Shown piece after piece: positions 1 through 23,974 of a DNA stretch of 64,000 nucleotides (position 1 is the stretch's first letter; each line of letters opens with the position of its first letter). The stretch is taken from NCBI GenBank assembly GCA_025602905.1, contig JAHLKI010000011.1, positions 682,001 to 746,000 of the forward strand, in the 5' to 3' direction. The notes beneath the pieces were generated by a model that saw nothing but the letters and a program-made list of their open reading frames with translations, searched no databases and was not told the origin of the DNA. The stretch is from Phlyctochytrium arcticum (lineage: Eukaryota > Chytridiomycota > Chytridiomycetes > Chytridiales > Chytridiaceae). The position numbers and the translations under genes are program-made.

Positions 1-36
1 CGGAACAAGATCCACGACCGCCATGATCCATTAGGA

Positions 37-561
37 TCAAAACCCTCGGGGTCTACAGAGACAACATAGACCCCATCCAAGCATCAAAAACCCAAGCACA
101 CCCACCACCACCCAATACCCAATCCCTACTCCACTTCCCGACCCCGAATTCATCTCCGGGTCATCATACCCAGGATAGTAATACCCACCAGGCCAAAACC
201 CTCCGGCCCAATACATGCCCCCATATAATCCAGCAGGGTAGTTTGCGGCCGTGTAGTACGTTGCGGGTGGAGGCGGCGTGGCGGGACCTTTGTAGGGTGG
301 TGGCGAGGATTGACGGGGTTGGCCTACGGGCCGTTTGGTGGATGTTGATTTAGTGGGATTGATTATTCCGCCGGGTTTTAGGATTGATGTTCCGATGCTG
401 CTGCTACTACTGCTGCCTTTTCCGATGCTGCTACTGCCTTTGCCGGAGATGGAGACTTTGACGATCGTTGGGCCGACAGGTACGGACGCATCAGGAAGGG
501 GAGTAGCAGCAGCTGCTGCCGCGAGAAAACACATCAAGAGTCCAGGTAGTATTATCCGCAC
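37..561 (-). CDS. Gly/Tyr-rich secreted, membrane-anchored protein 1 (copy 1)
   Basis: Single-exon 174 aa protein of unknown function. It opens with a hydrophobic signal peptide (about residues 1-19, ending in an alanine run). A Ser/Gly/Lys-rich segment follows (about 38-58), then a proline-rich stretch, then a Tyr/Gly/Trp/Pro core containing YWAGGFWPGGYYYPGY. One strongly hydrophobic helix (about 147-168) precedes a short Cys-containing tail. The core is shared with the neighbouring gene at 1482-2069, so the two are tandem paralogues; their 3' flanks also share short matches. The layout fits an extracellular or cell-wall protein tethered by a C-terminal helix. No enzymatic domain is recognisable and the function is unknown. 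The start is the only ATG placed before the signal peptide. Confidence 0.75.
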   Translation of the reverse strand: MRIILPGLLMCFLAAAAAATPLPDASVPVGPTIVKVSISGKGSSSIGKGSSSSSSIGTSILKPGGIINPTKSTSTKRPVGQPRQSSPPPYKGPATPPPPATYYTAANYPAGLYGGMYWAGGFWPGGYYYPGYDDPEMNSGSGSGVGIGYWVVVGVLGFLMLGWGLCCLCRPRGF

Positions 562-1481
562 TTGCTTGTAAAATGTGGGGGTTGTTGTTAAACTTGATGG
601 TTGTTATGGAAAAGCTGGGAAAGGTTGTTGTTGAGCTTGGTGGTGGTATGGAAAAACGAGGAAGAGATGAACAACCTCTTTTATATGTCGAGAAACTTGT
701 TCAAAAGGTCAGATTGATCACGCTGGTCAACTTGGCAGTGTCTTTCAAGTGTCTTCATACGATCATTCTATCTATGATGATAACTTGGCAGAACGTGTAA
801 ACGATTTACTAGCTTTTTTTCATTGCCAAGTCGCTTCAAATCAGACTAATACAGGTTCCGCTGAGCCGTCGCTCATTTCGTCACAACGGACATTTTCTCC
901 CTACTCCCTATAAACTGTAATGACCAGAGATTCACGAGTCCGGTCACGGTTTTCCTAGTTTTAGGCGACTGACTCTAACACGGAGCGTGGGAATTTGTAC
1001 TTCAATACAGAGTTCAACATAAGCGGTTCAGTATTCAGAATTGCCGATGCGCCGATTTCATTGTTTCAAATCATTTTATACAACAAAAACGCTTTGTGTG
1101 TGTGGGTGTGTGTGATTCAGAACTCTATACATTATACATTTGATTTCCCAAAAAAAACAGACGTTTTTGACGTCCAAAAAAATTTACAAAAGTTACAGGT
1201 ACGGACGGGGGACAGAGGTACAGTATATAGAGATGTTTGAAGAAGCGGTCGAGAGAGAGAGAGAGCATTCGGTCGTGGTGGAAGGCCACTTGGGTGCAGA
1301 TTAACGCTTTTTTTCCGGCATGGAGAATGGCTGCACGGTTGGGAGCCCTCCAGAAGTGGGACTCGCCGGTCCAGAACATGAGATCTGGGGTCGGTTGTAG
1401 TATAGTCAAAATATACCGGCTCCATCATCCGAAGGGTCTCCAAAAACGTATATCAAGGATAAATGAATCCATCAACATCAA
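562..1481. other. Intergenic, between the two Gly/Tyr-rich genes
   Basis: This holds the upstream region of the 37-561 gene and the downstream region of the 1482-2069 gene. Apart from the conserved upstream motifs and a short GA run near 1250-1264, I see no gene. Open frames on the minus strand at 1125-1443 have no coding character. The copy at 13421-14340 is identical. Confidence 0.6.
729..831 (-). promoter_or_regulatory. Conserved upstream TTGGC elements of Gly/Tyr-rich gene 1
   Basis: Three copies of an AACTTGGC-type motif lie at 729-738, 782-790 and, inverted (TTGCCAAGT), 823-831. They are 170-270 bp upstream of the 561 start. The same trio, in the same order and orientation, sits upstream of the paralogue at 2138-2243, including the flanking TCTATGA-GATAACTTGGC block. 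This suggests a shared regulator. The binding factor is unknown. Confidence 0.5.
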
Positions 1482-2069
1482 TCATCCAACTACCCAAGTG
1501 ACAATCCCCACCACGACACCTCCCACTAGAGTTCCCATCCCACCTACCCGACTCGCAGAATTCATGTCCGGGTCACTGTACCCCGGATAATAATACCCGC
1601 CGGGCCAGTACCCTCCCGCCCAATAAAAGCCAGAGTATGACCCTGCAGCGTAGGTGCCGGCCGGGTAGTATGTGGCGGGGGGTGCACGACTTCCGGGGGG
1701 ACCTCTGTAAGGGGGTGGAGAAGATTGTTGGGGTTGGCCTATTGGACGAGACGTGCTTCCTCCACCAGAACCGCCTTTTGATCCACCGCCTTTTCCTCCT
1801 CCTCCTCCTTTTCCTCCTCCACCCCCACCCTTTCCGGCAATAGCGAGCTTGACGGCTGTGGGTCGACTTGACTCGACTTCTAGACTCGAAGAATCGCTCG
1901 GGGAAAGGGATACGGCAATAGCGAGGTTGACCTGCTTGACGGCTGTTGGGCGACTTGATTCGACCACCAAACTCCAAGAATCGCTCGGGGGAAGGGATAC
2001 AGAGGCAGCAACCGACGCCGCTGCTGCCCCGAGAGATAATATCAGGAATCCAGAGAGACTTGTTCGCAT
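1482..2069 (-). CDS. Gly/Tyr-rich secreted, membrane-anchored protein 2 (copy 1)
   Basis: Single-exon 195 aa paralogue of the 37-561 product. A signal peptide covers about residues 1-22. Two near-identical repeats follow (about 23-45 and 52-74), each with a PSDS..SL.VESSRPTAVK pattern. Then come a Gly/Lys run (about 79-103), a GQPQQSSPPPYRGP proline motif and the aromatic core YWAGGYWPGGYYYPGY. The C-terminus is hydrophobic (about 173-195) with no polar tail, which resembles a GPI-attachment signal more than a plain transmembrane anchor. That point is inference. An extracellular or wall-surface location is likely; the biochemical role is unknown. It diverges from MRM2 across an about 340 bp shared upstream region. 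Confidence 0.75.
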   Translation of the reverse strand: MRTSLSGFLILSLGAAAASVAASVSLPPSDSWSLVVESSRPTAVKQVNLAIAVSLSPSDSSSLEVESSRPTAVKLAIAGKGGGGGGKGGGGGKGGGSKGGSGGGSTSRPIGQPQQSSPPPYRGPPGSRAPPATYYPAGTYAAGSYSGFYWAGGYWPGGYYYPGYSDPDMNSASRVGGMGTLVGGVVVGIVTWVVG

Positions 2070-2137
2070 TTGCTTGGTAAAAACTTGGGTGGGTGTTGGC
2101 TATTAAACTTGTTTTGCTTGTGGCTCGCTGTCCGGCA

Positions 2138-2243
2138 AACTTGGCAGTAGTTGTCTCGCGTTTGAACTTTTTGATATGTGTTGATCTGTCTATGACGATA
2201 ACTTGGCGGAACGAGACAAACAGGTTTACTTTTCTTGCCAAGT
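2138..2243 (-). promoter_or_regulatory. Conserved upstream TTGGC elements of Gly/Tyr-rich gene 2
   Basis: AACTTGGCAG at 2138-2147, AACTTGGCGG at 2200-2209 and inverted TTGCCAAGT at 2235-2243 repeat the arrangement seen upstream of the paralogue (729-831). They lie between this gene and the divergent MRM2 start, so they could influence either gene. Conservation with the paralogue suggests the Gly/Tyr-rich gene is the target. Confidence 0.5.
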
Positions 2244-2405
2244 CCTAATGTTTCTTTTGAACCGCAGAGGCAGCCAGAGGCAGTGGCAGCAACACAAGAC
2301 TTCACAAGATCAAGCTGTGGCTGTGACGTCCATTGGGCTTTGTCATATATTGCTCGCCAAAAAAATTTCCCAGTTTCCAAAAAAGTGAATTTCAAACAGA
2401 TCCCA

Positions 2406-3260
2406 ATGTCCCGACATAAACTCTTTTGCTCCAGGCTGGTCCGAGCAGTAGCTCCGTCTTCATATCCTTTATACCCACCAAGATCCCATATCCCAAGAAT
2501 CACTCCTCCCATATGCCACTACGCAACCACCACGTACGTTCCCAAAAAAAACACATATATGAACTCCAAAAACCAAAACAACTCACTCAAATATAGCAAT
2601 AAAACCCAATGGCTAACCCGTCAAAAATCCGATCCGTACGTCCGATCCCGCCCACAAGACAATTACCGCTCTCGAGCCGCCTACAAACTCGTTCAAATGT
2701 CGGACAAACATAGACTGTTTCGAGCCGGAATGAGGGTCTTGGATTTGGGCGGGTGTCCGGGTGGATGGGCCCAAGTTGCTGCTGCAAAAGTGGGAGGGAG
2801 GGGACGGGTTGTTTCCGTGGATTTGTTGGAGATGGATACGATTGCGGGGGTTGAGGTTGTTGAAGGGGATATGACGGATCCGGGGGTGCTGGAGGAAGTT
2901 CAGCGGTTGTTCATGGGTGACGACAGTAGTTTACAAGAGTCTAGTACTAGGCGAGTAGTCGATATCGTCATGTCGGATATGGCCCACCCCTTTACAGGCT
3001 CCCGAACGGCCGATGTCGCCCGCGTTCTCAATCTCTGCCGGCTCGCCTTTTCTGTCGCGGCCCACCCGTCCATGCTCAAACTCGGGGGCACATTCGTGTG
3101 CAAGTTTTTTCAAGGGTCGGGTGATGCCGATTTGAAGAGGGACTTGGGTGGATTATTTGATCGGGTACTCTATGAGAAACCGGATGCGAGCCGGAAAGGG
3201 TCGGCGGAGGGATATATTGTTTGTTTGGGGTATAAGGGTGGGATTTTACCACCAGAGTAG
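2406..3260 (+). CDS. MRM2: Mitochondrial rRNA 2'-O-methyltransferase, FtsJ/MRM2 family (copy 1)
   Basis: Single-exon, 284 aa from the ATG at 2406. The frame is open back to 2235, but the 2406 start gives a basic, Ser/Arg-rich N-terminus typical of a mitochondrial presequence, so I prefer it. The Rossmann SAM-binding motif VLDLGGCPGGW is near residue 112. The FtsJ catalytic tetrad is visible as K94, D191, K233 and E268. Mrm2/FTSJ2 proteins methylate a uridine in the peptidyl-transferase loop of the mitochondrial large-subunit rRNA, and the targeting sequence supports that role over cytosolic Trm7 or nucleolar Spb1 roles. Length is close to yeast Mrm2. It is transcribed divergently from the Gly/Tyr-rich gene. 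Confidence 0.9.
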   Translation: MSRHKLFCSRLVRAVAPSSYPLYPPRSHIPRITPPICHYATTTYVPKKNTYMNSKNQNNSLKYSNKTQWLTRQKSDPYVRSRPQDNYRSRAAYKLVQMSDKHRLFRAGMRVLDLGGCPGGWAQVAAAKVGGRGRVVSVDLLEMDTIAGVEVVEGDMTDPGVLEEVQRLFMGDDSSLQESSTRRVVDIVMSDMAHPFTGSRTADVARVLNLCRLAFSVAAHPSMLKLGGTFVCKFFQGSGDADLKRDLGGLFDRVLYEKPDASRKGSAEGYIVCLGYKGGILPPE

Positions 3261-3523
3261 TTAAATCATTAGAGTAGAGATTTAGTTTGTGTTAAGTGAC
3301 ACAATTGTGTGTGTGTGCAATACAGTTCATGCGGCAAAAGTGCTGTTTGTATATGAAGAGAGGGAGTGTATTCAGAAATAGTTTTGGATTAAAAAAAATC
3401 AATCGGATCGACAAGAATGGGAGAATGCGAGAAAGAGAGAGAAGAGAGTACCGAGATGCAAAAAAAAGAAAGAAAACTTTCAATCACAAAACGAAAAAAA
3501 AAACCAAATGACTAGAGAGATCT

Positions 3524-4562
3524 CTATCGTGCAGGAGCCGGAGCATTCTGAGCACGGGCCTGAGCCTCCATATCTCCCCAACGGACAATAGCATCTCTCA
3601 GGGTCGCATAGACCTTCTTCACAGCGGCCGGTAGGACCGGGTGTGCCGCCACCGCATCCGTCTTTGCGCGCAAATCACCAAAGGCCTGTTTAGTTAATGG
3701 GCTCATGACGTTCCGGAAAGCCAGGAATCGGACGTAAAACAGGGCTGTGACGAATGAGGTGGCGCCCCAGAGGATCCCAAAGACGGCCCAGGGGAGGATG
3801 GCAAAGACTTCGGCGTAGGCGACCAGGCGGAGGGCGCGGGACTGGTAGTTGCGGACAAAACGGAGAATCATGTCCTGGATTTTGGGGGTGATGGACGATG
3901 TGGAGGCGGGGAGGAGCGTCGGGAGGAGCTCGGAGCGGAAATAGTTGAGAGAGTGGAAAAGGGAAAAGACGGCGTAAGGGATCAAGGAGACTAAGAAAAT
4001 GTTAAAAAAATTAGTATATCATACGTATAGTCACATTAGACTTGTTTTTTTTTTGCGTACCTCCAAATGGCCGGGTAAACGCCCATATCAGCGCCAATAG
4101 AAAGTACTGAGTGTTTTCATCTCGCAAGACGGCCTGCAAGTACGATGTGTTGATTTGAGGGATCTACACAACCAAAAAAATCACATAAGTCCCCTCGTTT
4201 CTTCACTCAAAATAGACTAATCTCAAACTCACGCCATGGGCCTTGTACATGATGATACCATAACTCAGTAGAGTTCCGTAGTACGCTCTCGCGTATATTT
4301 TGGCCGCGGCACTAGGAGATCCTCGTGCGAAAAAGAGGTACAGAACCGTAGCCGTCACTAAACACAATGATAAGTACAAATATACCGCCAAGATGAAACC
4401 AAGAAAAACTGGACCTGTAGCCAAATGCCCCAAAAACCACAGAAACTGCGCGGTGAGAACGAGTTTGGATACGCGAGCTGTTAATGGGAGAACAACGGCT
4501 TGCTGCTGGGGATGAGCGCCGGCGGATCCAGCCGCTGTAGATTGAGTTGTGGCAGCAGGCAT
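3524..4562 (-). CDS. POM33: Pom33/TMEM33-family endomembrane protein (copy 1)
   Basis: Three exons on the minus strand: 4562-4233, 4163-4061 and 3990-3524. Both introns (69 and 70 bp) have canonical GT-AG ends and keep frame, giving 299 aa. Exon 1 carries two hydrophobic helices. Exons 2-3 join across SLIPYAVFSLFHSLNYF, a signature of the Pom33/Per33/TMEM33 family, followed by another membrane helix and an amphipathic C-terminus. Family members reside in the ER and nuclear envelope and help distribute or assemble nuclear pores. In yeast the C-terminal amphipathic helix targets curved membrane. The length is slightly longer than yeast Pom33. It is divergently arranged with the RING-CH gene. 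Confidence 0.85.
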
Positions 4563-5037
4563 GGCAAACTTTAAGTCAAGCGATTGGGGGTCAAAGGAAG
4601 GAACTTTTAGGAAGTGAGATATATAGGATCCCTTTATGGATGTTTCCCGATCTGGGTGAAACGCAACGGGGTTGAATCAAAGTAGCTGACTATAGCAAAG
4701 AACGTGGTAAGTATATATATATATGTGCTCTGCGAAAATATACTGCAAGGAGTAGATGAGATGATGATGTACCTGCCAATCGTGAAAAAAGCGTTCGAGG
4801 TTTTGCGAGATTTTGCCGAAAGGTTTGAGCGGCGAGCAGCCACGTCACCGACTGTGCCACGCAACGCCCTTTGTCGTGTCGGCTGATTTTGAATTTCGTG
4901 CAGTGTCATAGGCATTAGCTTCAGGAATCTGTGAAAGTGACTACAACGCTCAAAGTAACTATTCCCTGGAGCATCGGAGATATATCTGAATTGGGAGGAA
5001 AGAAACATTTGCACACGGCTTGTGTTTTTAGCAAGAG
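4563..5037. other. Divergent promoter region POM33 / RING-CH gene
   Basis: A 475 bp spacer between two divergent starts. It contains a short TA run at 4714-4724. The 137-codon minus-strand frame across it (4634-5047) has no recognisable domain, and I treat it as chance. Confidence 0.5.
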
Positions 5038-6116
5038 ATGGCTGCAATCAACCACGCGACGACAACAACAACGGAAGATGCATCCACTTACCCCCAGGGC
5101 CTTCGCCATCGCTTTGAAGGTCATCAAGCAGAAGAGTCACCGGCCACCTCTATTCCGGACGAGAATAGCAGTAGCAGCAGCAGCAGCAGCAGTGAAGGCG
5201 AATGGGTCAAAATTGCGGCCGAGTCGAGTAGTGAGGGAATCACGTCAAGAAGAGCAGAATTGACACAGGATGCATCACCTGTTGATAAAACACCCCATGA
5301 AGAAACCCCATATACCCCTGCCCACCAACCCCCCATTCAAGACCCACCCACCGAAGAATGCATCTGCCGAATCTGCTACGGCCCCGCCGACGCCGACCCC
5401 TTCATCTCACCCTGCAAATGCAAAGGCACCATGAAATTCGTGCACGTATCCTGTCTGAACGAATGGCGCAACGTCAGTCGAAACAAGAAGAGTTATGTTG
5501 AGTGTGATCATTGTCGGTATCGGTACCATTTTAGGCGGACTACTTGGGCTAAACTTGTTGTGAATGAAGGTATTGGGGTATTTTTTTTCACTGCTTCGCT
5601 GATATATATATATATATATAAAATTTCAAATTTATAGCTGTCGTGACAGGATTGACTCTACTCCTCTTTCTCTGTTTTGTCATTCTTGCCGGGTTCATGG
5701 CCAAACTCATCATTTACTATTTCTTCCAGCCGTCCCCTGACGACAACAATGACCTCTTACCCGACACGGACCCTTCCGATCCTCATCCATCCGACGACAA
5801 CCTCTTCCTCCTCCCCCCCCAATCCCTCTCGACCCTCCTCAAAATCGACCTCCCACATCTCCTCTCCGGCCTCCTAGTCATCGGCATCCTAGGCTTCTTC
5901 CAGCTCTTCATCACATTCCTCACAGGCCCCTTGGGGAATTTCCCCCGCATCCGAACGACACATCGGGACGGCACGCCCAACCTGATTATCATCCTCCTTA
6001 TTGCGATTGGCGTGGTGCGGACCATGTGGGCTTTGTATAAGGGTGTACGACGCTACTGTCGCGGTCGATTACGGTTTGTGGAGCGGGGTATTTTAGATGT
6101 AGCGGAGGAATCGTGA
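5038..6116 (+). CDS. RING-CH (MARCH-type) membrane E3 ubiquitin ligase (copy 1)
   Basis: Two exons, 5038-5569 and 5638-6116, separated by a 68 bp GT-AG intron containing a TA repeat. The product is 336 aa. The N-terminal about 100 residues are Ser/Thr-rich with a polyserine run. A C4HC3 RING-CH domain follows, starting CICRICYGPADADPFISPC and ending in ECDHC. After splicing the chain continues into three hydrophobic helices separated by an acidic Pro-rich loop. RING-CH domains in membrane proteins recruit E2 enzymes to ubiquitinate membrane substrates (MARCH and Doa10 families). The small size and few helices favour a MARCH-like rather than Doa10 protein. The substrate is unknown. Confidence 0.88.
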
Positions 6117-7261
6117 TTTTCTATAGCCGGTAGCTAACTTTTTAGAGTACCTGTTTTTTTTTGCGTTTCTCTGTATGTACATAAATCACTCTCTTCAAAA
6201 CAACTCATTGAAAATAGTTCTTTTGTGCCGCCAATATCTATTCCTACGCTCAAAGTTCCCACACTCTGTACAATCACAGCAGATATCCTTTGGTGTGTGT
6301 GTGTGTGTGTGTGGGGGGGGGGGGATCTCTCTCATCCTTACATACAAAAAATCATCAGGACGCTTGGGAGATACTTATGTGAAAGAGGGAGGTTCACCTT
6401 TCGTTTTTTTCATGACCACCCCACCACACCAAAATTCACAATGCCCGGTCCCGAGTAAACCCTCTTTTTGGTTCGTCGTTGCGCATCCCAAAAGTCTTTG
6501 GAGGGGGGGGGGATCAATACTACAAACCCCAGGATGACAGTATATAGCAACATTTTGGACCCCTGATATAGGCCCCCACATCCCCAACCCCATAACAATC
6601 CTACCCCGCTGGTGGGGATTTTATTGTGCCGGGGGGTATGATTTATCTGGGTAGAATGGAAGGGATGGATGGGTGGCGGATTCGTTGTTTTTTTTTTTGA
6701 CTTTGAAGAGAGAGATAATGAGACCTGCAAGGATGTCCGCTATACTCAAAGTATTGATTTTACAAAAAAAATACCGAAAACCATCCAAATCATATATTTC
6801 CACTATATACAGTCCCCATTGATCAATATGGAAATAAAGGGAGAGAGATGCTTTTCACATATAACCTCTTTTTTTTTATCAAATCTTAGATATAGTGGTC
6901 TTAAATTCCCACGCTTCGCTGTAGAAATTCAGAGTTGTGGCAAAAGAATGATTTTATTTTTTTTTGCCGTCTCTCCGAATCATATGCTTGGCAGATTCTC
7001 GCGGGAATGGACTTGATTCCGTTATGGCAAACACACTGCATGGCACTCACTCACTTACCCGTTATTTAGACAACCTCTCATCTCTCCCGTATGACTCTGC
7101 ACAGATTTGCAGTCTTTTTTTTGCATGATTCCCGGGCCGAACAGAAAAGTATCCTATATACTCGGATCAACCATTTTAGAGTTTAGCTTTGAATCCAGAG
7201 TTTATGCTGGTTTAGACTCATTTCCCGACATTTGGCAAGTCAATCAAAAAGACATTGTTAG

Positions 7262-7304
<43 letters not shown>

Positions 7305-7510
7305 AGATCCCACCCGCCCCATAATCTGAAAAGAGTTTGAAACTGTCCCTATCCCTTCAATTCAAAACATTTAGCGGAGAGGATACCCCGCCCCCGCCAT
7401 GATTTATTTCAAATAATGAGTCGAGCATTTTACTTTTTTGTCAACGGGCGGAAGGGTTGCTGCCCGCGCGTTGACCGCGTTGCCATGGCCCGGGTCTTCC
7501 CGATCCGGCC
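6117..7510. other. Long intergenic region with simple repeats
   Basis: About 1.4 kb without a gene I can support. It contains a GT run followed by a G homopolymer (about 6295-6324), several short poly-G and poly-T tracts, and the AG microsatellite at 7264-7301. The poly-T near 6870 is one base shorter than in the second copy. Small open frames here change length between the copies because of that indel, which argues against coding. Confidence 0.6.
7264..7301. repeat. AG microsatellite (differs between copies)
   Basis: An uninterrupted GA/AG run. The second copy (from about 20124) is longer by two dinucleotides. Together with one T near 6870, this is the only difference found between the two units. 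Confidence 0.9.
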
Positions 7511-7518
7511 TTATATAT
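7511..7518 (+). promoter_or_regulatory. TATA-like element of the peroxiredoxin gene
   Basis: TTATATAT lies 112 bp upstream of the peroxiredoxin ATG. A pyrimidine-rich CT stretch sits between it and the start, a common fungal core-promoter arrangement. The identical element in copy 2 is at 20375-20382. Confidence 0.5.
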
Positions 7519-7629
7519 CTGAGAGCTGTGAAGTTCCGCGACCTTCTCCCTCGGATCATCTTCTCATCTCACTTCCTTCAAGTGATCAACCTTTTTACCT
7601 TCTTACAACAACAGCACATATACTCAACC

Positions 7630-8632
7630 ATGGGTAAAAGTCCTTATTTTATTTCTGGCATCTGCGGAGATCTCTAACTTGTGAGATGACTCTACAGCAC
7701 CCGTTATTGGACACAAGGCCCCCGAGTTCAAGGGCACATCCGTCTTTGACGGTCAGTTTAAGGACATTAACCTGGACCAGTACAAGGGCAAATACGTTGT
7801 TTTGTTCTTTTACCCCATGGACTGTAAGTATTCCCTGTATATATACATACGTTCGTCGCTTTACTGATTTTTGTTTATTATAGTCACATTTGTCTGCCCC
7901 ACCGAAATCATTGCATTCAGCGACCGTGTCGAAGAATTCCGTAAATTGAACTGTGAAGTCGTTGCCTGTTCTACCGATACGCGATTCTCTCACCTCGCCT
8001 GGGTGCAACAACCCCGCAAGGAAGGCGGTCTGGGCGACATGAAGATTCCCATCCTGGCCGACCCCACCAAAAAGATTGCCACTGATTATGGGGTGTTGAT
8101 TACTGATGGGGAGGATGCGGGTGTTGCCCTTCGTGGAACGTTTATTATTGATCCTGAGCAAAAGTTGCGGATTGCGCACATTAATGATTTGCCGATTGGA
8201 CGGAATGTGTCTGAATACGTGCGTTTGGTTGAGGCTCTTCGATTCAATGCCGAGCATGGTGAAGGTAATGTGACATTGACCTTGGCGATCAACACTTTGT
8301 GACTGAATATCTTGCCCCAAATCTCTTTATAGTCTGCCCCGCTCAATGGGAGAAGGGTGGCAAGACCATCAAGCCTGACCCCAAGGGATCCAAGGAATAC
8401 TTTGGAAAGGTATAAAATCCTCTCTTTACATCTTGGCATTTGCACGTACAAAGGTAATACCCGACCTCATATCTCTCTTGTCTTTCCTCTCGTGTATATC
8501 TGACCTACTATTTCTTCTCGAAAACAACAGCTTGAAGAACAAGTCCCTGGATCAGTCAAACGGTCTCTGGATGATGTTGACGACAACCGCGAGAATGTGG
8601 GGCCTATTGACCACCAGCGCATCAAGCATTGA
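7630..8632 (+). CDS. Typical 2-Cys peroxiredoxin (copy 1)
   Basis: Five exons: 7630-7633, 7698-7823, 7884-8264, 8333-8409 and 8531-8632, with all introns GT-AG. The first coding exon is only four bases (ATGG). Joined, it reads [12 protein letters not shown], a normal peroxiredoxin start. The peroxidatic Cys48 lies in FVCPTE and the resolving Cys172 in VCPAQW. A GGLG motif and a C-terminal EYF are present, the pair linked to sensitivity to hyperoxidation. It reduces H2O2 and organic peroxides using thioredoxin in the cytosol. With the last intron spliced the protein is 229 aa with an acidic 33-residue tail. If that intron is retained, it stops after KEYFGKV at 197 aa, which is the usual family length. 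The Tsa1/PRDX1-4 class is likely. Confidence 0.93.
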
Positions 8633-9227
8633 TTTTTTTTTCATATTTTGCATTGTATTCTCTTCTCTCATTTGTATCTTTTTCTTTTTTAAAAACAACG
8701 TTGATGCTTCTTACTTTTCGGTTTGTGTGTGTGTGTGTGTGTGTCACTGTGTGTGATGCCTGGGTGAGTCGACTTTGGAGTAAGGACCCCGTTGGCGGAA
8801 GCGTTTGCCGGGCGGGGGCGGAGGGATGGGAATGTCCGCTGTGTTGATTCAGCAGTACATTGACCATGGAGTCTACAGCCGGGAATCTTTGACTAGAGCC
8901 CCCAGTGTTTGGAGTCACTTGGAAGCGAGTCGGGTAATAAATGCCGCCGGTTCTTTTATCCAATGACTGTGCCTTTAGTGCCTGAGTGCCTGAGTGTCCC
9001 ACCTCCGCCAAGATTTCCAGTGGCTGTGAGTCAGGTGACATGCCGCGGGTCGGGAAAACCCGTCTGAATCGTGGATGCGCGAGCGATGGGCCCGAGCGAT
9101 GGGCCTGAGCGATGGGCCAGCGAGCGAGCGATGCGCGAGCGATCTGGGTGGATGAGTTCTTGTTTGGGGTTTGGGGCTTCAGTGTCTTTTTGCTGATTAA
9201 TGGTTGCTTTTCGTTTGGCGGGCGGGG
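8633..9227. other. Intergenic upstream of zinc-finger start
   Basis: Holds a GT microsatellite near 8723-8743, a GC-rich segment, and the short minisatellite at 9077-9142. No gene seen. Confidence 0.6.
9077..9142. repeat. GAGCGATGGGCC minisatellite in promoter
   Basis: Short imperfect tandem repeats of GCGAGCGATGGGCC/T lie about 90-150 bp upstream of the TATA box of the zinc-finger gene. They could be repeated factor sites or simple slippage. The identical copy is at 21941-22006. Confidence 0.6.
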
Positions 9228-9234
9228 TATATAA
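9228..9234 (+). promoter_or_regulatory. TATA box of the zinc-finger promoter (copy 1, drives the fusion)
   Basis: TATATAA lies 98 bp upstream of the zinc-finger ATG at 9326. The leader between them contains a CA dinucleotide run (about 9282-9308). In this copy the promoter faces the LIM-binding gene because of the duplication junction. In copy 2 (22092-22098) it drives the intact zinc-finger gene. Confidence 0.6.
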
Positions 9235-9325
9235 GGATTCGCTCGGGACGGGGCACTTTTCCCTATAATACTTTGTACTCAACACACACACACACACACA
9301 CACACACAACTACTTCAAACGACAA

Positions 9326-9526
9326 ATGAGCACTTTCACCCTCCAAAAGACACTCCATGACTTGACCACCACCACCACCACCACTGGAACAACCAAAGAA
9401 CAACAAAACCAGCAACTCTTGCTCCTCCACCAGAAACTGGCCCACGCCCTCTCGTCCTACTCGCCCTATTCTCAGTCTCTGCACTCTCTGTCCCAGTCTC
9501 TGCACTCTCAGACCACTCTGGTTTGA
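9326..9526 (+). pseudogene. 5' fragment of C2H2 zinc-finger gene at duplication junction
   Basis: The first 63 codons are identical to the intact gene at 22190. After base 9516 the sequence switches to that of the LIM-binding locus, and the frame stops at 9526 after 66 codons. All downstream parts, including both zinc fingers, are missing. The fragment would act as an upstream open reading frame in any transcript from this promoter, ending 34 bases before the LIM-binding ATG. Confidence 0.9.
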
Positions 9527-9560
9527 GCACGCTACCAAACGCATACCCAGTGCAACCAGC

Positions 9561-12859: not shown

Positions 12860-12895
12860 CGGAACAAGATCCACGACCGCCATGATCCATTAGGA

Positions 12896-13420: not shown

Positions 13421-14340
13421 TTGCTTGTAAAATGTGGGGGTTGTTGTTAAACTTGATGGTTGTTATGGAAAAGCTGGGAAAGGTTGTTGTTGAGCTTGGT
13501 GGTGGTATGGAAAAACGAGGAAGAGATGAACAACCTCTTTTATATGTCGAGAAACTTGTTCAAAAGGTCAGATTGATCACGCTGGTCAACTTGGCAGTGT
13601 CTTTCAAGTGTCTTCATACGATCATTCTATCTATGATGATAACTTGGCAGAACGTGTAAACGATTTACTAGCTTTTTTTCATTGCCAAGTCGCTTCAAAT
13701 CAGACTAATACAGGTTCCGCTGAGCCGTCGCTCATTTCGTCACAACGGACATTTTCTCCCTACTCCCTATAAACTGTAATGACCAGAGATTCACGAGTCC
13801 GGTCACGGTTTTCCTAGTTTTAGGCGACTGACTCTAACACGGAGCGTGGGAATTTGTACTTCAATACAGAGTTCAACATAAGCGGTTCAGTATTCAGAAT
13901 TGCCGATGCGCCGATTTCATTGTTTCAAATCATTTTATACAACAAAAACGCTTTGTGTGTGTGGGTGTGTGTGATTCAGAACTCTATACATTATACATTT
14001 GATTTCCCAAAAAAAACAGACGTTTTTGACGTCCAAAAAAATTTACAAAAGTTACAGGTACGGACGGGGGACAGAGGTACAGTATATAGAGATGTTTGAA
14101 GAAGCGGTCGAGAGAGAGAGAGAGCATTCGGTCGTGGTGGAAGGCCACTTGGGTGCAGATTAACGCTTTTTTTCCGGCATGGAGAATGGCTGCACGGTTG
14201 GGAGCCCTCCAGAAGTGGGACTCGCCGGTCCAGAACATGAGATCTGGGGTCGGTTGTAGTATAGTCAAAATATACCGGCTCCATCATCCGAAGGGTCTCC
14301 AAAAACGTATATCAAGGATAAATGAATCCATCAACATCAA

Positions 14341-14928
14341 TCATCCAACTACCCAAGTGACAATCCCCACCACGACACCTCCCACTAGAGTTCCCATCCC
14401 ACCTACCCGACTCGCAGAATTCATGTCCGGGTCACTGTACCCCGGATAATAATACCCGCCGGGCCAGTACCCTCCCGCCCAATAAAAGCCAGAGTATGAC
14501 CCTGCAGCGTAGGTGCCGGCCGGGTAGTATGTGGCGGGGGGTGCACGACTTCCGGGGGGACCTCTGTAAGGGGGTGGAGAAGATTGTTGGGGTTGGCCTA
14601 TTGGACGAGACGTGCTTCCTCCACCAGAACCGCCTTTTGATCCACCGCCTTTTCCTCCTCCTCCTCCTTTTCCTCCTCCACCCCCACCCTTTCCGGCAAT
14701 AGCGAGCTTGACGGCTGTGGGTCGACTTGACTCGACTTCTAGACTCGAAGAATCGCTCGGGGAAAGGGATACGGCAATAGCGAGGTTGACCTGCTTGACG
14801 GCTGTTGGGCGACTTGATTCGACCACCAAACTCCAAGAATCGCTCGGGGGAAGGGATACAGAGGCAGCAACCGACGCCGCTGCTGCCCCGAGAGATAATA
14901 TCAGGAATCCAGAGAGACTTGTTCGCAT
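14341..14928 (-). CDS. Gly/Tyr-rich secreted, membrane-anchored protein 2 (copy 2)
   Basis: Identical to the 1482-2069 gene, with the same internal 23-residue repeat, Gly/Lys run, aromatic core and GPI-like hydrophobic end. The conserved upstream motifs are at 14997-15102. Confidence 0.75.
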   Translation of the reverse strand: MRTSLSGFLILSLGAAAASVAASVSLPPSDSWSLVVESSRPTAVKQVNLAIAVSLSPSDSSSLEVESSRPTAVKLAIAGKGGGGGGKGGGGGKGGGSKGGSGGGSTSRPIGQPQQSSPPPYRGPPGSRAPPATYYPAGTYAAGSYSGFYWAGGYWPGGYYYPGYSDPDMNSASRVGGMGTLVGGVVVGIVTWVVG

Positions 14929-15264
14929 TTGCTTGGTAAAAACTTGGGTGGGTGTTGGCTATTAAACTTGTTTTGCTTGTGGCTCGCTGTCCGGCAAACT
15001 TGGCAGTAGTTGTCTCGCGTTTGAACTTTTTGATATGTGTTGATCTGTCTATGACGATAACTTGGCGGAACGAGACAAACAGGTTTACTTTTCTTGCCAA
15101 GTCCTAATGTTTCTTTTGAACCGCAGAGGCAGCCAGAGGCAGTGGCAGCAACACAAGACTTCACAAGATCAAGCTGTGGCTGTGACGTCCATTGGGCTTT
15201 GTCATATATTGCTCGCCAAAAAAATTTCCCAGTTTCCAAAAAAGTGAATTTCAAACAGATCCCA

Positions 15265-16119
15265 ATGTCCCGACATAAACTCTTTTGCTCCAGGCTGGTC
15301 CGAGCAGTAGCTCCGTCTTCATATCCTTTATACCCACCAAGATCCCATATCCCAAGAATCACTCCTCCCATATGCCACTACGCAACCACCACGTACGTTC
15401 CCAAAAAAAACACATATATGAACTCCAAAAACCAAAACAACTCACTCAAATATAGCAATAAAACCCAATGGCTAACCCGTCAAAAATCCGATCCGTACGT
15501 CCGATCCCGCCCACAAGACAATTACCGCTCTCGAGCCGCCTACAAACTCGTTCAAATGTCGGACAAACATAGACTGTTTCGAGCCGGAATGAGGGTCTTG
15601 GATTTGGGCGGGTGTCCGGGTGGATGGGCCCAAGTTGCTGCTGCAAAAGTGGGAGGGAGGGGACGGGTTGTTTCCGTGGATTTGTTGGAGATGGATACGA
15701 TTGCGGGGGTTGAGGTTGTTGAAGGGGATATGACGGATCCGGGGGTGCTGGAGGAAGTTCAGCGGTTGTTCATGGGTGACGACAGTAGTTTACAAGAGTC
15801 TAGTACTAGGCGAGTAGTCGATATCGTCATGTCGGATATGGCCCACCCCTTTACAGGCTCCCGAACGGCCGATGTCGCCCGCGTTCTCAATCTCTGCCGG
15901 CTCGCCTTTTCTGTCGCGGCCCACCCGTCCATGCTCAAACTCGGGGGCACATTCGTGTGCAAGTTTTTTCAAGGGTCGGGTGATGCCGATTTGAAGAGGG
16001 ACTTGGGTGGATTATTTGATCGGGTACTCTATGAGAAACCGGATGCGAGCCGGAAAGGGTCGGCGGAGGGATATATTGTTTGTTTGGGGTATAAGGGTGG
16101 GATTTTACCACCAGAGTAG
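15265..16119 (+). CDS. MRM2: Mitochondrial rRNA 2'-O-methyltransferase, FtsJ/MRM2 family (copy 2)
   Basis: A 284 aa protein identical to that of 2406-3260, with the K-D-K-E tetrad intact. If the duplication is real, the organism carries two identical MRM2 genes. Confidence 0.9.
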   Translation: MSRHKLFCSRLVRAVAPSSYPLYPPRSHIPRITPPICHYATTTYVPKKNTYMNSKNQNNSLKYSNKTQWLTRQKSDPYVRSRPQDNYRSRAAYKLVQMSDKHRLFRAGMRVLDLGGCPGGWAQVAAAKVGGRGRVVSVDLLEMDTIAGVEVVEGDMTDPGVLEEVQRLFMGDDSSLQESSTRRVVDIVMSDMAHPFTGSRTADVARVLNLCRLAFSVAAHPSMLKLGGTFVCKFFQGSGDADLKRDLGGLFDRVLYEKPDASRKGSAEGYIVCLGYKGGILPPE

Positions 16120-16382
16120 TTAAATCATTAGAGTAGAGATTTAGTTTGTGTTAAGTGACACAATTGTGTGTGTGTGCAATACAGTTCATGCGGCAAAAGT
16201 GCTGTTTGTATATGAAGAGAGGGAGTGTATTCAGAAATAGTTTTGGATTAAAAAAAATCAATCGGATCGACAAGAATGGGAGAATGCGAGAAAGAGAGAG
16301 AAGAGAGTACCGAGATGCAAAAAAAAGAAAGAAAACTTTCAATCACAAAACGAAAAAAAAAACCAAATGACTAGAGAGATCT

Positions 16383-17421
16383 CTATCGTGCAGGAGCCGG
16401 AGCATTCTGAGCACGGGCCTGAGCCTCCATATCTCCCCAACGGACAATAGCATCTCTCAGGGTCGCATAGACCTTCTTCACAGCGGCCGGTAGGACCGGG
16501 TGTGCCGCCACCGCATCCGTCTTTGCGCGCAAATCACCAAAGGCCTGTTTAGTTAATGGGCTCATGACGTTCCGGAAAGCCAGGAATCGGACGTAAAACA
16601 GGGCTGTGACGAATGAGGTGGCGCCCCAGAGGATCCCAAAGACGGCCCAGGGGAGGATGGCAAAGACTTCGGCGTAGGCGACCAGGCGGAGGGCGCGGGA
16701 CTGGTAGTTGCGGACAAAACGGAGAATCATGTCCTGGATTTTGGGGGTGATGGACGATGTGGAGGCGGGGAGGAGCGTCGGGAGGAGCTCGGAGCGGAAA
16801 TAGTTGAGAGAGTGGAAAAGGGAAAAGACGGCGTAAGGGATCAAGGAGACTAAGAAAATGTTAAAAAAATTAGTATATCATACGTATAGTCACATTAGAC
16901 TTGTTTTTTTTTTGCGTACCTCCAAATGGCCGGGTAAACGCCCATATCAGCGCCAATAGAAAGTACTGAGTGTTTTCATCTCGCAAGACGGCCTGCAAGT
17001 ACGATGTGTTGATTTGAGGGATCTACACAACCAAAAAAATCACATAAGTCCCCTCGTTTCTTCACTCAAAATAGACTAATCTCAAACTCACGCCATGGGC
17101 CTTGTACATGATGATACCATAACTCAGTAGAGTTCCGTAGTACGCTCTCGCGTATATTTTGGCCGCGGCACTAGGAGATCCTCGTGCGAAAAAGAGGTAC
17201 AGAACCGTAGCCGTCACTAAACACAATGATAAGTACAAATATACCGCCAAGATGAAACCAAGAAAAACTGGACCTGTAGCCAAATGCCCCAAAAACCACA
17301 GAAACTGCGCGGTGAGAACGAGTTTGGATACGCGAGCTGTTAATGGGAGAACAACGGCTTGCTGCTGGGGATGAGCGCCGGCGGATCCAGCCGCTGTAGA
17401 TTGAGTTGTGGCAGCAGGCAT
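16383..17421 (-). CDS. POM33: Pom33/TMEM33-family endomembrane protein (copy 2)
   Basis: Exons 17421-17092, 17022-16920 and 16849-16383 encode the same 299 aa protein as the first copy. Splice sites are unchanged. Confidence 0.85.
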
Positions 17422-17896
17422 GGCAAACTTTAAGTCAAGCGATTGGGGGTCAAAGGAAGGAACTTTTAGGAAGTGAGATATATAGGATCCCTTTATGGAT
17501 GTTTCCCGATCTGGGTGAAACGCAACGGGGTTGAATCAAAGTAGCTGACTATAGCAAAGAACGTGGTAAGTATATATATATATGTGCTCTGCGAAAATAT
17601 ACTGCAAGGAGTAGATGAGATGATGATGTACCTGCCAATCGTGAAAAAAGCGTTCGAGGTTTTGCGAGATTTTGCCGAAAGGTTTGAGCGGCGAGCAGCC
17701 ACGTCACCGACTGTGCCACGCAACGCCCTTTGTCGTGTCGGCTGATTTTGAATTTCGTGCAGTGTCATAGGCATTAGCTTCAGGAATCTGTGAAAGTGAC
17801 TACAACGCTCAAAGTAACTATTCCCTGGAGCATCGGAGATATATCTGAATTGGGAGGAAAGAAACATTTGCACACGGCTTGTGTTTTTAGCAAGAG

Positions 17897-18975
17897 ATGG
17901 CTGCAATCAACCACGCGACGACAACAACAACGGAAGATGCATCCACTTACCCCCAGGGCCTTCGCCATCGCTTTGAAGGTCATCAAGCAGAAGAGTCACC
18001 GGCCACCTCTATTCCGGACGAGAATAGCAGTAGCAGCAGCAGCAGCAGCAGTGAAGGCGAATGGGTCAAAATTGCGGCCGAGTCGAGTAGTGAGGGAATC
18101 ACGTCAAGAAGAGCAGAATTGACACAGGATGCATCACCTGTTGATAAAACACCCCATGAAGAAACCCCATATACCCCTGCCCACCAACCCCCCATTCAAG
18201 ACCCACCCACCGAAGAATGCATCTGCCGAATCTGCTACGGCCCCGCCGACGCCGACCCCTTCATCTCACCCTGCAAATGCAAAGGCACCATGAAATTCGT
18301 GCACGTATCCTGTCTGAACGAATGGCGCAACGTCAGTCGAAACAAGAAGAGTTATGTTGAGTGTGATCATTGTCGGTATCGGTACCATTTTAGGCGGACT
18401 ACTTGGGCTAAACTTGTTGTGAATGAAGGTATTGGGGTATTTTTTTTCACTGCTTCGCTGATATATATATATATATATAAAATTTCAAATTTATAGCTGT
18501 CGTGACAGGATTGACTCTACTCCTCTTTCTCTGTTTTGTCATTCTTGCCGGGTTCATGGCCAAACTCATCATTTACTATTTCTTCCAGCCGTCCCCTGAC
18601 GACAACAATGACCTCTTACCCGACACGGACCCTTCCGATCCTCATCCATCCGACGACAACCTCTTCCTCCTCCCCCCCCAATCCCTCTCGACCCTCCTCA
18701 AAATCGACCTCCCACATCTCCTCTCCGGCCTCCTAGTCATCGGCATCCTAGGCTTCTTCCAGCTCTTCATCACATTCCTCACAGGCCCCTTGGGGAATTT
18801 CCCCCGCATCCGAACGACACATCGGGACGGCACGCCCAACCTGATTATCATCCTCCTTATTGCGATTGGCGTGGTGCGGACCATGTGGGCTTTGTATAAG
18901 GGTGTACGACGCTACTGTCGCGGTCGATTACGGTTTGTGGAGCGGGGTATTTTAGATGTAGCGGAGGAATCGTGA
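17897..18975 (+). CDS. RING-CH (MARCH-type) membrane E3 ubiquitin ligase (copy 2)
   Basis: Exons 17897-18428 and 18497-18975 give the identical 336 aa RING-CH plus three-helix protein. The TA run in the intron has the same length in both copies. Confidence 0.88.
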
Positions 18976-20121
18976 TTTTCTATAGCCGGTAGCTAACTTT
19001 TTAGAGTACCTGTTTTTTTTTGCGTTTCTCTGTATGTACATAAATCACTCTCTTCAAAACAACTCATTGAAAATAGTTCTTTTGTGCCGCCAATATCTAT
19101 TCCTACGCTCAAAGTTCCCACACTCTGTACAATCACAGCAGATATCCTTTGGTGTGTGTGTGTGTGTGTGTGGGGGGGGGGGGATCTCTCTCATCCTTAC
19201 ATACAAAAAATCATCAGGACGCTTGGGAGATACTTATGTGAAAGAGGGAGGTTCACCTTTCGTTTTTTTCATGACCACCCCACCACACCAAAATTCACAA
19301 TGCCCGGTCCCGAGTAAACCCTCTTTTTGGTTCGTCGTTGCGCATCCCAAAAGTCTTTGGAGGGGGGGGGGATCAATACTACAAACCCCAGGATGACAGT
19401 ATATAGCAACATTTTGGACCCCTGATATAGGCCCCCACATCCCCAACCCCATAACAATCCTACCCCGCTGGTGGGGATTTTATTGTGCCGGGGGGTATGA
19501 TTTATCTGGGTAGAATGGAAGGGATGGATGGGTGGCGGATTCGTTGTTTTTTTTTTTGACTTTGAAGAGAGAGATAATGAGACCTGCAAGGATGTCCGCT
19601 ATACTCAAAGTATTGATTTTACAAAAAAAATACCGAAAACCATCCAAATCATATATTTCCACTATATACAGTCCCCATTGATCAATATGGAAATAAAGGG
19701 AGAGAGATGCTTTTCACATATAACCTCTTTTTTTTTTATCAAATCTTAGATATAGTGGTCTTAAATTCCCACGCTTCGCTGTAGAAATTCAGAGTTGTGG
19801 CAAAAGAATGATTTTATTTTTTTTTGCCGTCTCTCCGAATCATATGCTTGGCAGATTCTCGCGGGAATGGACTTGATTCCGTTATGGCAAACACACTGCA
19901 TGGCACTCACTCACTTACCCGTTATTTAGACAACCTCTCATCTCTCCCGTATGACTCTGCACAGATTTGCAGTCTTTTTTTTGCATGATTCCCGGGCCGA
20001 ACAGAAAAGTATCCTATATACTCGGATCAACCATTTTAGAGTTTAGCTTTGAATCCAGAGTTTATGCTGGTTTAGACTCATTTCCCGACATTTGGCAAGT
20101 CAATCAAAAAGACATTGTTAG

Positions 20122-20168
<47 letters not shown>

Positions 20169-20374
20169 AGATCCCACCCGCCCCATAATCTGAAAAGAGT
20201 TTGAAACTGTCCCTATCCCTTCAATTCAAAACATTTAGCGGAGAGGATACCCCGCCCCCGCCATGATTTATTTCAAATAATGAGTCGAGCATTTTACTTT
20301 TTTGTCAACGGGCGGAAGGGTTGCTGCCCGCGCGTTGACCGCGTTGCCATGGCCCGGGTCTTCCCGATCCGGCC
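18976..20374. other. Intergenic with simple repeats (copy 2)
   Basis: Equivalent of 6117-7510, with one extra T near 19730 and four extra bases in the AG run at about 20124-20165. No gene seen. Confidence 0.6.
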
Positions 20375-20493
20375 TTATATATCTGAGAGCTGTGAAGTTC
20401 CGCGACCTTCTCCCTCGGATCATCTTCTCATCTCACTTCCTTCAAGTGATCAACCTTTTTACCTTCTTACAACAACAGCACATATACTCAACC

Positions 20494-21496
20494 ATGGGTA
20501 AAAGTCCTTATTTTATTTCTGGCATCTGCGGAGATCTCTAACTTGTGAGATGACTCTACAGCACCCGTTATTGGACACAAGGCCCCCGAGTTCAAGGGCA
20601 CATCCGTCTTTGACGGTCAGTTTAAGGACATTAACCTGGACCAGTACAAGGGCAAATACGTTGTTTTGTTCTTTTACCCCATGGACTGTAAGTATTCCCT
20701 GTATATATACATACGTTCGTCGCTTTACTGATTTTTGTTTATTATAGTCACATTTGTCTGCCCCACCGAAATCATTGCATTCAGCGACCGTGTCGAAGAA
20801 TTCCGTAAATTGAACTGTGAAGTCGTTGCCTGTTCTACCGATACGCGATTCTCTCACCTCGCCTGGGTGCAACAACCCCGCAAGGAAGGCGGTCTGGGCG
20901 ACATGAAGATTCCCATCCTGGCCGACCCCACCAAAAAGATTGCCACTGATTATGGGGTGTTGATTACTGATGGGGAGGATGCGGGTGTTGCCCTTCGTGG
21001 AACGTTTATTATTGATCCTGAGCAAAAGTTGCGGATTGCGCACATTAATGATTTGCCGATTGGACGGAATGTGTCTGAATACGTGCGTTTGGTTGAGGCT
21101 CTTCGATTCAATGCCGAGCATGGTGAAGGTAATGTGACATTGACCTTGGCGATCAACACTTTGTGACTGAATATCTTGCCCCAAATCTCTTTATAGTCTG
21201 CCCCGCTCAATGGGAGAAGGGTGGCAAGACCATCAAGCCTGACCCCAAGGGATCCAAGGAATACTTTGGAAAGGTATAAAATCCTCTCTTTACATCTTGG
21301 CATTTGCACGTACAAAGGTAATACCCGACCTCATATCTCTCTTGTCTTTCCTCTCGTGTATATCTGACCTACTATTTCTTCTCGAAAACAACAGCTTGAA
21401 GAACAAGTCCCTGGATCAGTCAAACGGTCTCTGGATGATGTTGACGACAACCGCGAGAATGTGGGGCCTATTGACCACCAGCGCATCAAGCATTGA
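20494..21496 (+). CDS. Typical 2-Cys peroxiredoxin (copy 2)
   Basis: Exons 20494-20497, 20562-20687, 20748-21128, 21197-21273 and 21395-21496 repeat the structure of the first copy exactly, including the four-base first exon and the final intron whose retention would give the shorter C-terminus. Confidence 0.93.
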
Positions 21497-22189
21497 TTTT
21501 TTTTTCATATTTTGCATTGTATTCTCTTCTCTCATTTGTATCTTTTTCTTTTTTAAAAACAACGTTGATGCTTCTTACTTTTCGGTTTGTGTGTGTGTGT
21601 GTGTGTGTCACTGTGTGTGATGCCTGGGTGAGTCGACTTTGGAGTAAGGACCCCGTTGGCGGAAGCGTTTGCCGGGCGGGGGCGGAGGGATGGGAATGTC
21701 CGCTGTGTTGATTCAGCAGTACATTGACCATGGAGTCTACAGCCGGGAATCTTTGACTAGAGCCCCCAGTGTTTGGAGTCACTTGGAAGCGAGTCGGGTA
21801 ATAAATGCCGCCGGTTCTTTTATCCAATGACTGTGCCTTTAGTGCCTGAGTGCCTGAGTGTCCCACCTCCGCCAAGATTTCCAGTGGCTGTGAGTCAGGT
21901 GACATGCCGCGGGTCGGGAAAACCCGTCTGAATCGTGGATGCGCGAGCGATGGGCCCGAGCGATGGGCCTGAGCGATGGGCCAGCGAGCGAGCGATGCGC
22001 GAGCGATCTGGGTGGATGAGTTCTTGTTTGGGGTTTGGGGCTTCAGTGTCTTTTTGCTGATTAATGGTTGCTTTTCGTTTGGCGGGCGGGGTATATAAGG
22101 ATTCGCTCGGGACGGGGCACTTTTCCCTATAATACTTTGTACTCAACACACACACACACACACACACACACAACTACTTCAAACGACAA

Positions 22190-23974
22190 ATGAGCACTTT
22201 CACCCTCCAAAAGACACTCCATGACTTGACCACCACCACCACCACCACTGGAACAACCAAAGAACAACAAAACCAGCAACTCTTGCTCCTCCACCAGAAA
22301 CTGGCCCACGCCCTCTCGTCCTACTCGCCCTATTCTCAGTCTCTGCACTCTCTGTCCCAGTCTCTGCACTCTCAGACCACCACCGAGACCATGCCCCTCT
22401 CAGGAACAGCTCCCGCCCAAGGAAACCAAGGAGCGGCGGCGGCGGCGGCGGCGTCTCAGAACCCACCACCCGCCGCCACGTCATCACTTGTTGCATCACG
22501 GGTCACGGGGTTTGGGGATTCACCAGGCGAGACTCTCACTCCGCTTGCTGCTAAACACTCTGCACCACACTCACGACATGCTCACACTTCAACAACTATG
22601 CCTACTGCAGACACTTCCCCCGCATCGCCATTCTACTACCCACACCCCTTCCACGTCGCGCCTAGTGCAGACTCTGATACCAACGACTTTTACACAGACG
22701 CAGACCCCATGATGATGTTGGATGACTCGGGCAGCACCACTGACAACCTGTGGGGGTACACGGCCGAGCCTACTCCAGGGACAGAAGACCCCCTCCAGGA
22801 ACTACTAACAGCAGAGTTTCCACCCGCTCTCTCCTCGCCCAGTCTCTCCTCCTCCATGTCTACTACTTCAGGCCTCAACTCGGCTCAATCCCTTCTCTTT
22901 GATTCCTTTGGCCCCGTCTCGGCTCACCCCGCCTCCGTCGACAACGACGACGAGGAACCTTTGCTCATTGACCCGCTCATGTCTCTGGGCTCGGAATCCA
23001 ATAACTGGCCCGCCACAAACAACAACAACAACAACAATACGGACGATGTTAATGCCCTGTTTGCGAGTCTCTTGGAACAACAGGAAAATGTGTTTAAACA
23101 AGAAGACTCGGATGAGGCTGCCGCTGACCAGGCCTACTTGGACTCGACCTACTCCTCTGGTCCATCAACACAGCAGACAACAAATCAAACAACTCTAGAC
23201 ATTCCAAGAATTACTCTCTCGCCACTTTCACCCTCGTTATATTCAGACTTTTCCGATGATCAAGAGGACGTGGTCGAGTCAGACCCCGACTATACACCCG
23301 TACACAAAAACAAAAACATCAGGAGAGGAAGCATATCCCACAAACGCCCTCCTGCTCGTCTCAGTGCAGCAGCCTCCCCCACAACCACATCCTCTTCCCT
23401 CCCCTCACCCGCTCCCACATCCATAGGCACATTCTCACCCCGCATCCCCCTCGACCGCGCCCCTCCCAACACCACCACCGGCACCCTCACACCAGGCCCC
23501 ATCATCCTCCCCCAACACCTCAACTTGGCTCACATGTACTCGGGCCAAATCACCCTCCCCCAACTCTTTACCCTCTTCTCGCCTTCCCTCACCAAATCCG
23601 CTCGCACATCCAACATCATCAAACTCCCTGAAGGCCTCGACAAACGCTTCCACTGTCCGTGGCGGGATTGCGCCTCTTCTCATGCGAGACGGTACAATCT
23701 GAAAACACACTATGGCGAAGTCCACGAAGGCTTAAAACCTTTTGCCTGCCCGTGGTGTGAAGAAACATTTGCACGTAAATACGACTGTAATCGACATCGG
23801 ATTAATGCTCATCTGGAGGAAGAACAGAGCCTGCCGGTTCATTTGCAAGCCAAACTCAAAGCGGGCTCCGACATTGATCTCAACTCTCTCACTGTACCCC
23901 TCTCTCCATCTCCCAAACGATCCTCGAGTTCGACATTCTCTTCGGCTTCATCTCCTGCTAAACGTCGGCGATAG
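22190..23974 (+). CDS. C2H2 zinc-finger transcription factor
   Basis: Intact single-exon 594 aa protein. About 480 residues of Ser/Thr/Pro/Gln/Asn-rich, acidic sequence (including a polyalanine run near 82-90 and an Asn run near 280) look like activation or regulatory regions. Two C2H2 fingers lie at about 487-541: the first has CPWRDC with HYGEVH, the second CPWC with HRINAH, joined by a short EGLKPFA linker. The wide Cys spacing of the first finger and close linkage recall fungal Crz1/Msn2-type tandem fingers, but I cannot assign an orthologue. A basic AKRRR ends the protein. The 5' part up to 22380 belongs to the duplicated unit; the rest is unique. It is probably a nuclear DNA-binding regulator. 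Confidence 0.85.
   Translation: MSTFTLQKTLHDLTTTTTTTGTTKEQQNQQLLLLHQKLAHALSSYSPYSQSLHSLSQSLHSQTTTETMPLSGTAPAQGNQGAAAAAAASQNPPPAATSSLVASRVTGFGDSPGETLTPLAAKHSAPHSRHAHTSTTMPTADTSPASPFYYPHPFHVAPSADSDTNDFYTDADPMMMLDDSGSTTDNLWGYTAEPTPGTEDPLQELLTAEFPPALSSPSLSSSMSTTSGLNSAQSLLFDSFGPVSAHPASVDNDDEEPLLIDPLMSLGSESNNWPATNNNNNNNTDDVNALFASLLEQQENVFKQEDSDEAAADQAYLDSTYSSGPSTQQTTNQTTLDIPRITLSPLSPSLYSDFSDDQEDVVESDPDYTPVHKNKNIRRGSISHKRPPARLSAAASPTTTSSSLPSPAPTSIGTFSPRIPLDRAPPNTTTGTLTPGPIILPQHLNLAHMYSGQITLPQLFTLFSPSLTKSARTSNIIKLPEGLDKRFHCPWRDCASSHARRYNLKTHYGEVHEGLKPFACPWCEETFARKYDCNRHRINAHLEEEQSLPVHLQAKLKAGSDIDLNSLTVPLSPSPKRSSSSTFSSASSPAKRRR

Follow-up and report, generated by a model that had tools for sequence, protein, structure and literature searches.

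Does the pair of nearly identical blocks that stand head to tail at the left end of this sequence represent a very young tandem duplication, or was one stretch of DNA written twice during assembly? The pair was recognised in the window, by which we mean the whole stretch of 64,000 nucleotides under analysis (C11:682001-746000, in an assembly of 31,481,740 bases and 91 contigs), and it extends leftward beyond base 1 of the window on the same contig, C11. Weighing the evidence set out below, we conclude that the pair probably exists in the organism, as a direct tandem segmental duplication of two copies and very recent origin, whose head-to-tail junction places a second copy of a LIM-domain-binding gene behind the first part of a zinc-finger reading frame.

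The repeated unit and its junction

An earlier note made from the window had claimed a repeat of about 9.5 kb with two length differences (one T and two AG units), and had predicted that the 3.34 kb immediately to the left of the window would equal positions 9517-12859. Self-comparison of the window bore out the first of these claims: positions 1-9516 and 12860-22380 align over 9,521 columns with no mismatches and two gaps, so that not a single substitution separates them. The left flank fetched from the contig agreed exactly with the second claim, since 3,345 further bases were identical, made up of the 3,343 bases of window positions 9517-12859 and 2 bases common to the junction ends, and the match breaks off abruptly at C11:678655/691514. 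As this flank equals positions 9517-12859 exactly, the unit is C11:678656-691514, with a length of 12,859 bp, and is repeated head to tail at C11:691515-704380. Within the window, the first copy is thus represented by positions 1-9514, its start lying 3,345 bases to the left of base 1, and the second copy is complete at positions 9515-22380.

Over the whole pair (C11:678656-691516 versus 691515-704380), 12,866 aligned columns contain no mismatches and two gaps, corresponding to 99.96% identity. Both limits are sharp, and the copies are identical up to the final base at each limit, intergenic sequence included. The absence of substitutions from 12,859 sites puts divergence below about 2.3e-4 per site (95% upper bound). 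The first of the two length differences is a plus-strand run of nine T residues in the left copy (6869-6877) against ten in the right copy (run end at 19737), the difference falling after positions 6877 and 19736, respectively. The second lies in a plus-strand GA microsatellite (7264-7304 in the first copy and 20124-20168 in the second), where the GA run measures 36 nt on the left and 40 nt on the right, i.e., two GA units. One difference is thus in a homopolymer and the other in a dinucleotide run, which is the longest of nine such runs of at least 5 units in the unit; the nearer of the two differences lies about 2.2 kb from the junction.

A chance origin of the pair is excluded by its length and identity. 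The copies are adjacent, in the same orientation, longer than 1 kb and more than 90% identical, as is required of a direct tandem segmental duplication, and the pair most likely belongs to this known class as an ordinary tandem duplication. The alternative of a haplotype pair of a diploid is disfavoured by the zero substitutions.

We estimated the genome-wide copy number with two DNA queries of 1,501 and 3,001 bases taken from the unit, instead of the entire unit, and each of them found two places, both on C11; more than two copies are accordingly unsupported. The right flank is single in the genome, as is the left-flank query save its last 45 bases, which belong to the unit. A query with the whole unit returned 20 short matches on other contigs, the best of which covered 155 query bases at 80%, and was set aside as a copy count since C11 itself was unlisted. 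The LIM-binding family PF01803 has 2 matches in the genome, which are the two duplicated copies. Besides, in a self-match survey covering 288 kb of contiguous C11 (C11:612001-900308), the unit pair was the only one of 35 matches of at least 200 bp that was both longer than 1 kb and more than 90% identical. The suggestion in the earlier note of an amplification of six genes needs revision on two counts, as the block is present in two copies, and as seven genes can be recognised in the unit, the seventh being that for the LIM-binding protein; an eighth reading frame contributes its 5' end.

At the junction (9513-9518), ...CTCTCAGACC is joined to ACTCTGG..., and the dinucleotide AC at 9515-9516 is common to both ends, forming a 2-bp microhomology. 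The two copies abut here with no gap, no N and no inserted base. An overlap of at least 2 bp was found in 16% of random position pairs around the two limits (100,000 pairs), and the AC overlap therefore proves nothing. When local alignments were made in windows of 61, 121 and 201 bp around the limits, 57%, 17% and 41% of 2,000 random pairs, respectively, scored as high, so that no long homologous repeat at both unit limits was found in windows of this range. Unequal exchange mediated by long repeats (nonallelic homologous recombination, including that between long terminal repeats or transposons) is ruled out, given that no such repeat stands at the limits and only 2 bp are shared.

Real duplication or assembly artefact

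The duplication, its limits, its junction sequence and the reading frames are read directly in the assembly; that the organism itself carries both copies is what we infer from the seamless join, the sharp ends, the presence of two differences in 12.86 kb, and a control for doubling elsewhere. No N occurs in C11:612001-900308, and hence none between the copies. The control comprised 32 loci of three families (10 chaperonin, 14 proteasome and 8 MCM loci), whose counts fit the expectation for a single-copy set. No two of these loci had scores and spans in common, although this small sample cannot exclude local redundancy; the loci were match rows that we grouped ourselves, and doubling was judged by scores and spans rather than by locus-to-locus alignment. 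A general doubling of the assembly was thus not seen among the control loci, but local redundancy did turn up in another place.

That place is contig C70 (38,483 bp), first noticed as equal-score places when an unrelated gene family was counted, and it bears on the possibility that the organism has one copy, which the assembly shows twice because two contig ends that overlap, or a chimeric read, were placed end to end. Several points weigh on this side and against a real duplication. C70 matches C13:170322-208306 in all three stretches compared, both contig ends included (C70:1-5680, 14184-24000 and 32001-38483, together 21,980 of 38,483 bases, with 4, 0 and 17 difference events, respectively). 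The two end stretches show 21 differences in 12,163 bases, 18 of them single-base insertions or deletions and none in the last 1.5 kb, and the middle stretch is identical to C13 at 9,817 of 9,817 bases. The two contigs are not wholly alike, as their offset shifts by 503 bases between C70:5681 and 14000, and C70 looks like a contained contig or an alternative allele, i.e., redundancy of the usual kind. Its form differs from that of the C11 pair in that it is a separate contig with many single-base insertions or deletions in its end stretches; since its middle is no less clean than the pair on C11, this contrast is a weak one. In addition, the C11 copies are identical save for two length differences of a type that consensus error also produces, and the overlap at the junction is not above the chance level. 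The portions of PMC9516828 drawn on here report that false copies are mostly parted by an assembly gap and sometimes joined by read-unsupported stretches, features not found with true duplications; for newer assemblies, they place 22.2 of 24.1, 4.8 of 5.8 and 3.4 of 5.6 Mbp of false duplication on the same scaffold. As most false duplication is on the same scaffold in those assemblies, location on a single contig is no proof of truth. Finally, the choice between the two explanations is made here from the assembled sequence alone.

Against an artefact stand the join, which has neither gap nor N, and the 32 undoubled control loci. The difference nearest to the junction is about 2.2 kb away from it, whereas 21 events fall in the 12,163 bases compared at the ends of C70 (again with the last 1.5 kb free of them), and a random chimeric read would rarely link two points of the same orientation that are 12.9 kb apart. 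We therefore regard an artefact as unlikely, though serious enough to be kept in mind. Where the earlier note had left the choice between a recent amplification and an uncollapsed assembly overlap, the balance of the findings favours a real duplication, and the redundant C70 keeps the overlap alive.

Zero substitutions alone are no measure of age, and tandem direct repeats are known substrates of gene conversion, so that an older tandem duplication held identical through gene conversion or unequal exchange also has to be considered. Conversion tracts, however, usually leave unconverted margins, whereas the copies here agree completely at both limits and between genes, and differ in the length of two repeats only, and we consider such an origin very improbable. 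Taking the young duplication and the older, homogenised one together, the probability that the duplication is real becomes slightly higher still. If it is real, the locus presents a tandem duplication before any substitution has occurred and with its junction intact. If it is an artefact, the locus calls for caution, as seven genes would be counted twice.

Genes in and around the unit

The right unit limit falls within a zinc-finger reading frame of 594 codons. The intact 594-aa frame (22190-23974, plus strand) runs across the right unit end (22380/22381), and the frame cut by the junction is represented by its 5' end (9326-9526, plus strand), which has 66 codons: 63 were kept before the junction and three were added, with the stop at 9524-9526. 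The second-unit copy of the LIM-domain-binding gene (9561-12167, plus strand) has its ATG at 9561, 34 nt past this stop, so that the zinc-finger upstream region and 63 codons now precede it; the other copy starts at C11:678702. After its seven predicted exons were joined, the LIM-binding protein matched PF01803 with an E value of 4.3e-19. Introns were predicted by eye, and full gene models were made for the LIM-binding gene only.

At the original LIM-binding locus, a GTGAGT...ACAG interval lies upstream (C11:678506-678577) and is likely a leader intron of this gene, and no ATG occurs from C11:678556 to the start at 678702. On these two grounds, the junction, 44-46 bp before the LIM-binding ATG, most likely falls in the leader of that gene. 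On the other side, the zinc-finger frame is open from the ATG at 22190, the nearest upstream in-frame stop being at 22130. Its label rests on a C2H2-like Cys/His pattern seen by eye, which is also present in a Spizellomyces protein, and the frame has no Pfam match. In a search for relatives, with scoring confined to the 7,990 candidates that had most words in common with the frame, a single relative was listed, in which the zinc-finger N-terminus has no counterpart, the alignment starting at residue 151 of the frame. Because the N-terminus is unmatched there, the junction may cut either the zinc-finger coding sequence or its leader.

These features suggest how the duplication might have arisen. 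The DNA would have broken, or a fork stalled, close to where the zinc-finger frame begins. The end would then have been joined to a site on the sister or the same chromosome, 44-46 bp before the LIM-binding ATG, or extended by copying from that site, with no more than 2 bp in common between the two sequences. The route may have been nonhomologous end joining or short-microhomology template switching; end joining of two sister-chromatid breaks and low-homology template switching both fit, and the sequence does not separate them.

After such an event, the original genes would remain intact, seven genes would gain a second copy, and the junction would be the only new sequence. The second LIM-binding gene would be deprived of its own upstream region, likely including the leader intron, and the dosage of the other six genes would presumably be doubled. 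We infer that the second LIM-binding copy would be transcribed, if at all, from the promoter of the zinc-finger gene, and that it may be poorly translated because the 66-codon frame precedes it. That the duplication is real and was moreover favoured, because an extra copy of the sole LIM-binding co-regulator now stands, behind a short leader frame, under the control sequences of the neighbouring zinc-finger regulator, seems to us highly doubtful; if that were true, it would be regulatory rewiring caught shortly after its birth.

The other genes of the unit are given here by their first-copy positions, with those of the second copy in parentheses. A Pro/Gly/Ser-rich frame of 174 aa that looks secreted by eye (37-561, minus strand; again at 12896-13420) and a related Gly-rich frame of 195 aa (1482-2069, minus strand; again at 14341-14928) have no Pfam family. 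Frames and Pfam matches identified an FtsJ/MRM2-like rRNA methyltransferase (2235-3260, plus strand; again at 15094-16119), a TMEM33/Pom33 exon (3524-3985, minus strand; again at 16383-16844) and a peroxiredoxin (AhpC-TSA) exon (7871-8302, plus strand; again at 20735-21166). A RING-variant (RINGv) protein is encoded in two frames (5038-6116, plus strand; again at 17897-18975), the domain being in the first and the second having no Pfam match. The first two frames, both short, Gly/Pro-rich and secreted-looking, are 76.6% identical over 184 columns (146-326 against 1558-1741, and likewise in their second-unit copies) and look like older tandem paralogues, so that the large young duplication would contain a small old one.

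The nearest named relatives of the FtsJ protein are those of Powellomyces, Spizellomyces, Fimicolochytrium, Geranomyces and Thoreauomyces (50-55% identity), the best match beyond the window's own protein being 55% identical. We take these genera to be chytrids of the Spizellomycetales type, and the relatives, together with the predicted introns, point to a chytrid-like fungus in or near Spizellomycetales as the host.

Several features outside the unit were also observed. To its left, two overlapping minus-strand frames (positions 1317-3799 of the fetched stretch L003) appear to belong to a single hybrid histidine kinase; the scanned part (1317-2414) gave matches to HATPase_c and a response regulator, with HisKA below the cut-off. 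At the far left of the contig, an 18-base motif occurs twice in C11:1-120 (positions 1 and 88), and C11 may begin in a repeat. To the right, the window contains a multigene family (28233-29516, 47563-49126, 59323-60661 and 61939-63160) with about 73-80% DNA identity between long pairs, whose members look secreted and contain Cys by eye; the two members tested had no Pfam match. When one member was used as the query, 64 stretches (not to be read as genes) matched across the genome, with several of them clustered on C4, C5, C23 and C46.

Comparison with known systems

A limited text search turned up no dedicated study of segmental duplication in chytrids, and the closest comparison is with budding yeast. 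According to the part of Payen et al. (2008; PMC2518615) drawn on here, segmental duplications that arise spontaneously in yeast, direct tandem ones among them, have dispersed repeats at about half of their junctions and low-complexity or microhomologous sequence at the remainder, and 13 chimeric frames were found from 26 sequenced breakpoints. The C11 pair resembles these duplications in being an intrachromosomal direct block with intact breakpoint genes and a truncated or chimeric junction frame. It differs in that its junction shares 2 nt (AC), whereas the microhomologies in the mutant strains measured 8-10 nt (the introduction of that paper gives "a few nucleotides" for an earlier screen), and in that the yeast events came from growth selection, none being known here. 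The marks of microhomology/microsatellite-induced replication in yeast are Pol32-dependent, Rad52-independent formation and a junction with microhomology or low-complexity sequence; at the C11 junction, the shared sequence is the 2-nt AC, which chance reaches in 16% of joins.

False (homotype) duplications, as described in the same portions of PMC9516828, are like the C11 pair in that the copies are almost identical, show no heterozygous differences and, in newer assemblies, often share a scaffold. Unlike them, the C11 copies have no intervening gap. What defines a false duplication is reduced read depth over the copies, and the C11 pair is known from the assembled sequence.

If the C11 duplication is real, such cases show the onset of duplication without flanking repeats and a new gene arrangement made by the junction. 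For this arrangement, the SSU1 promoter switch of wine yeasts offers a parallel in the parts of PMC8150848 and PMC7830279 that deal with it, as a microhomology rearrangement there likewise puts a gene behind the control region of another. In C11, unlike at SSU1, it would be an extra copy that is rewired, with the original kept and a truncated frame lying between, in a locus known from its sequence only.

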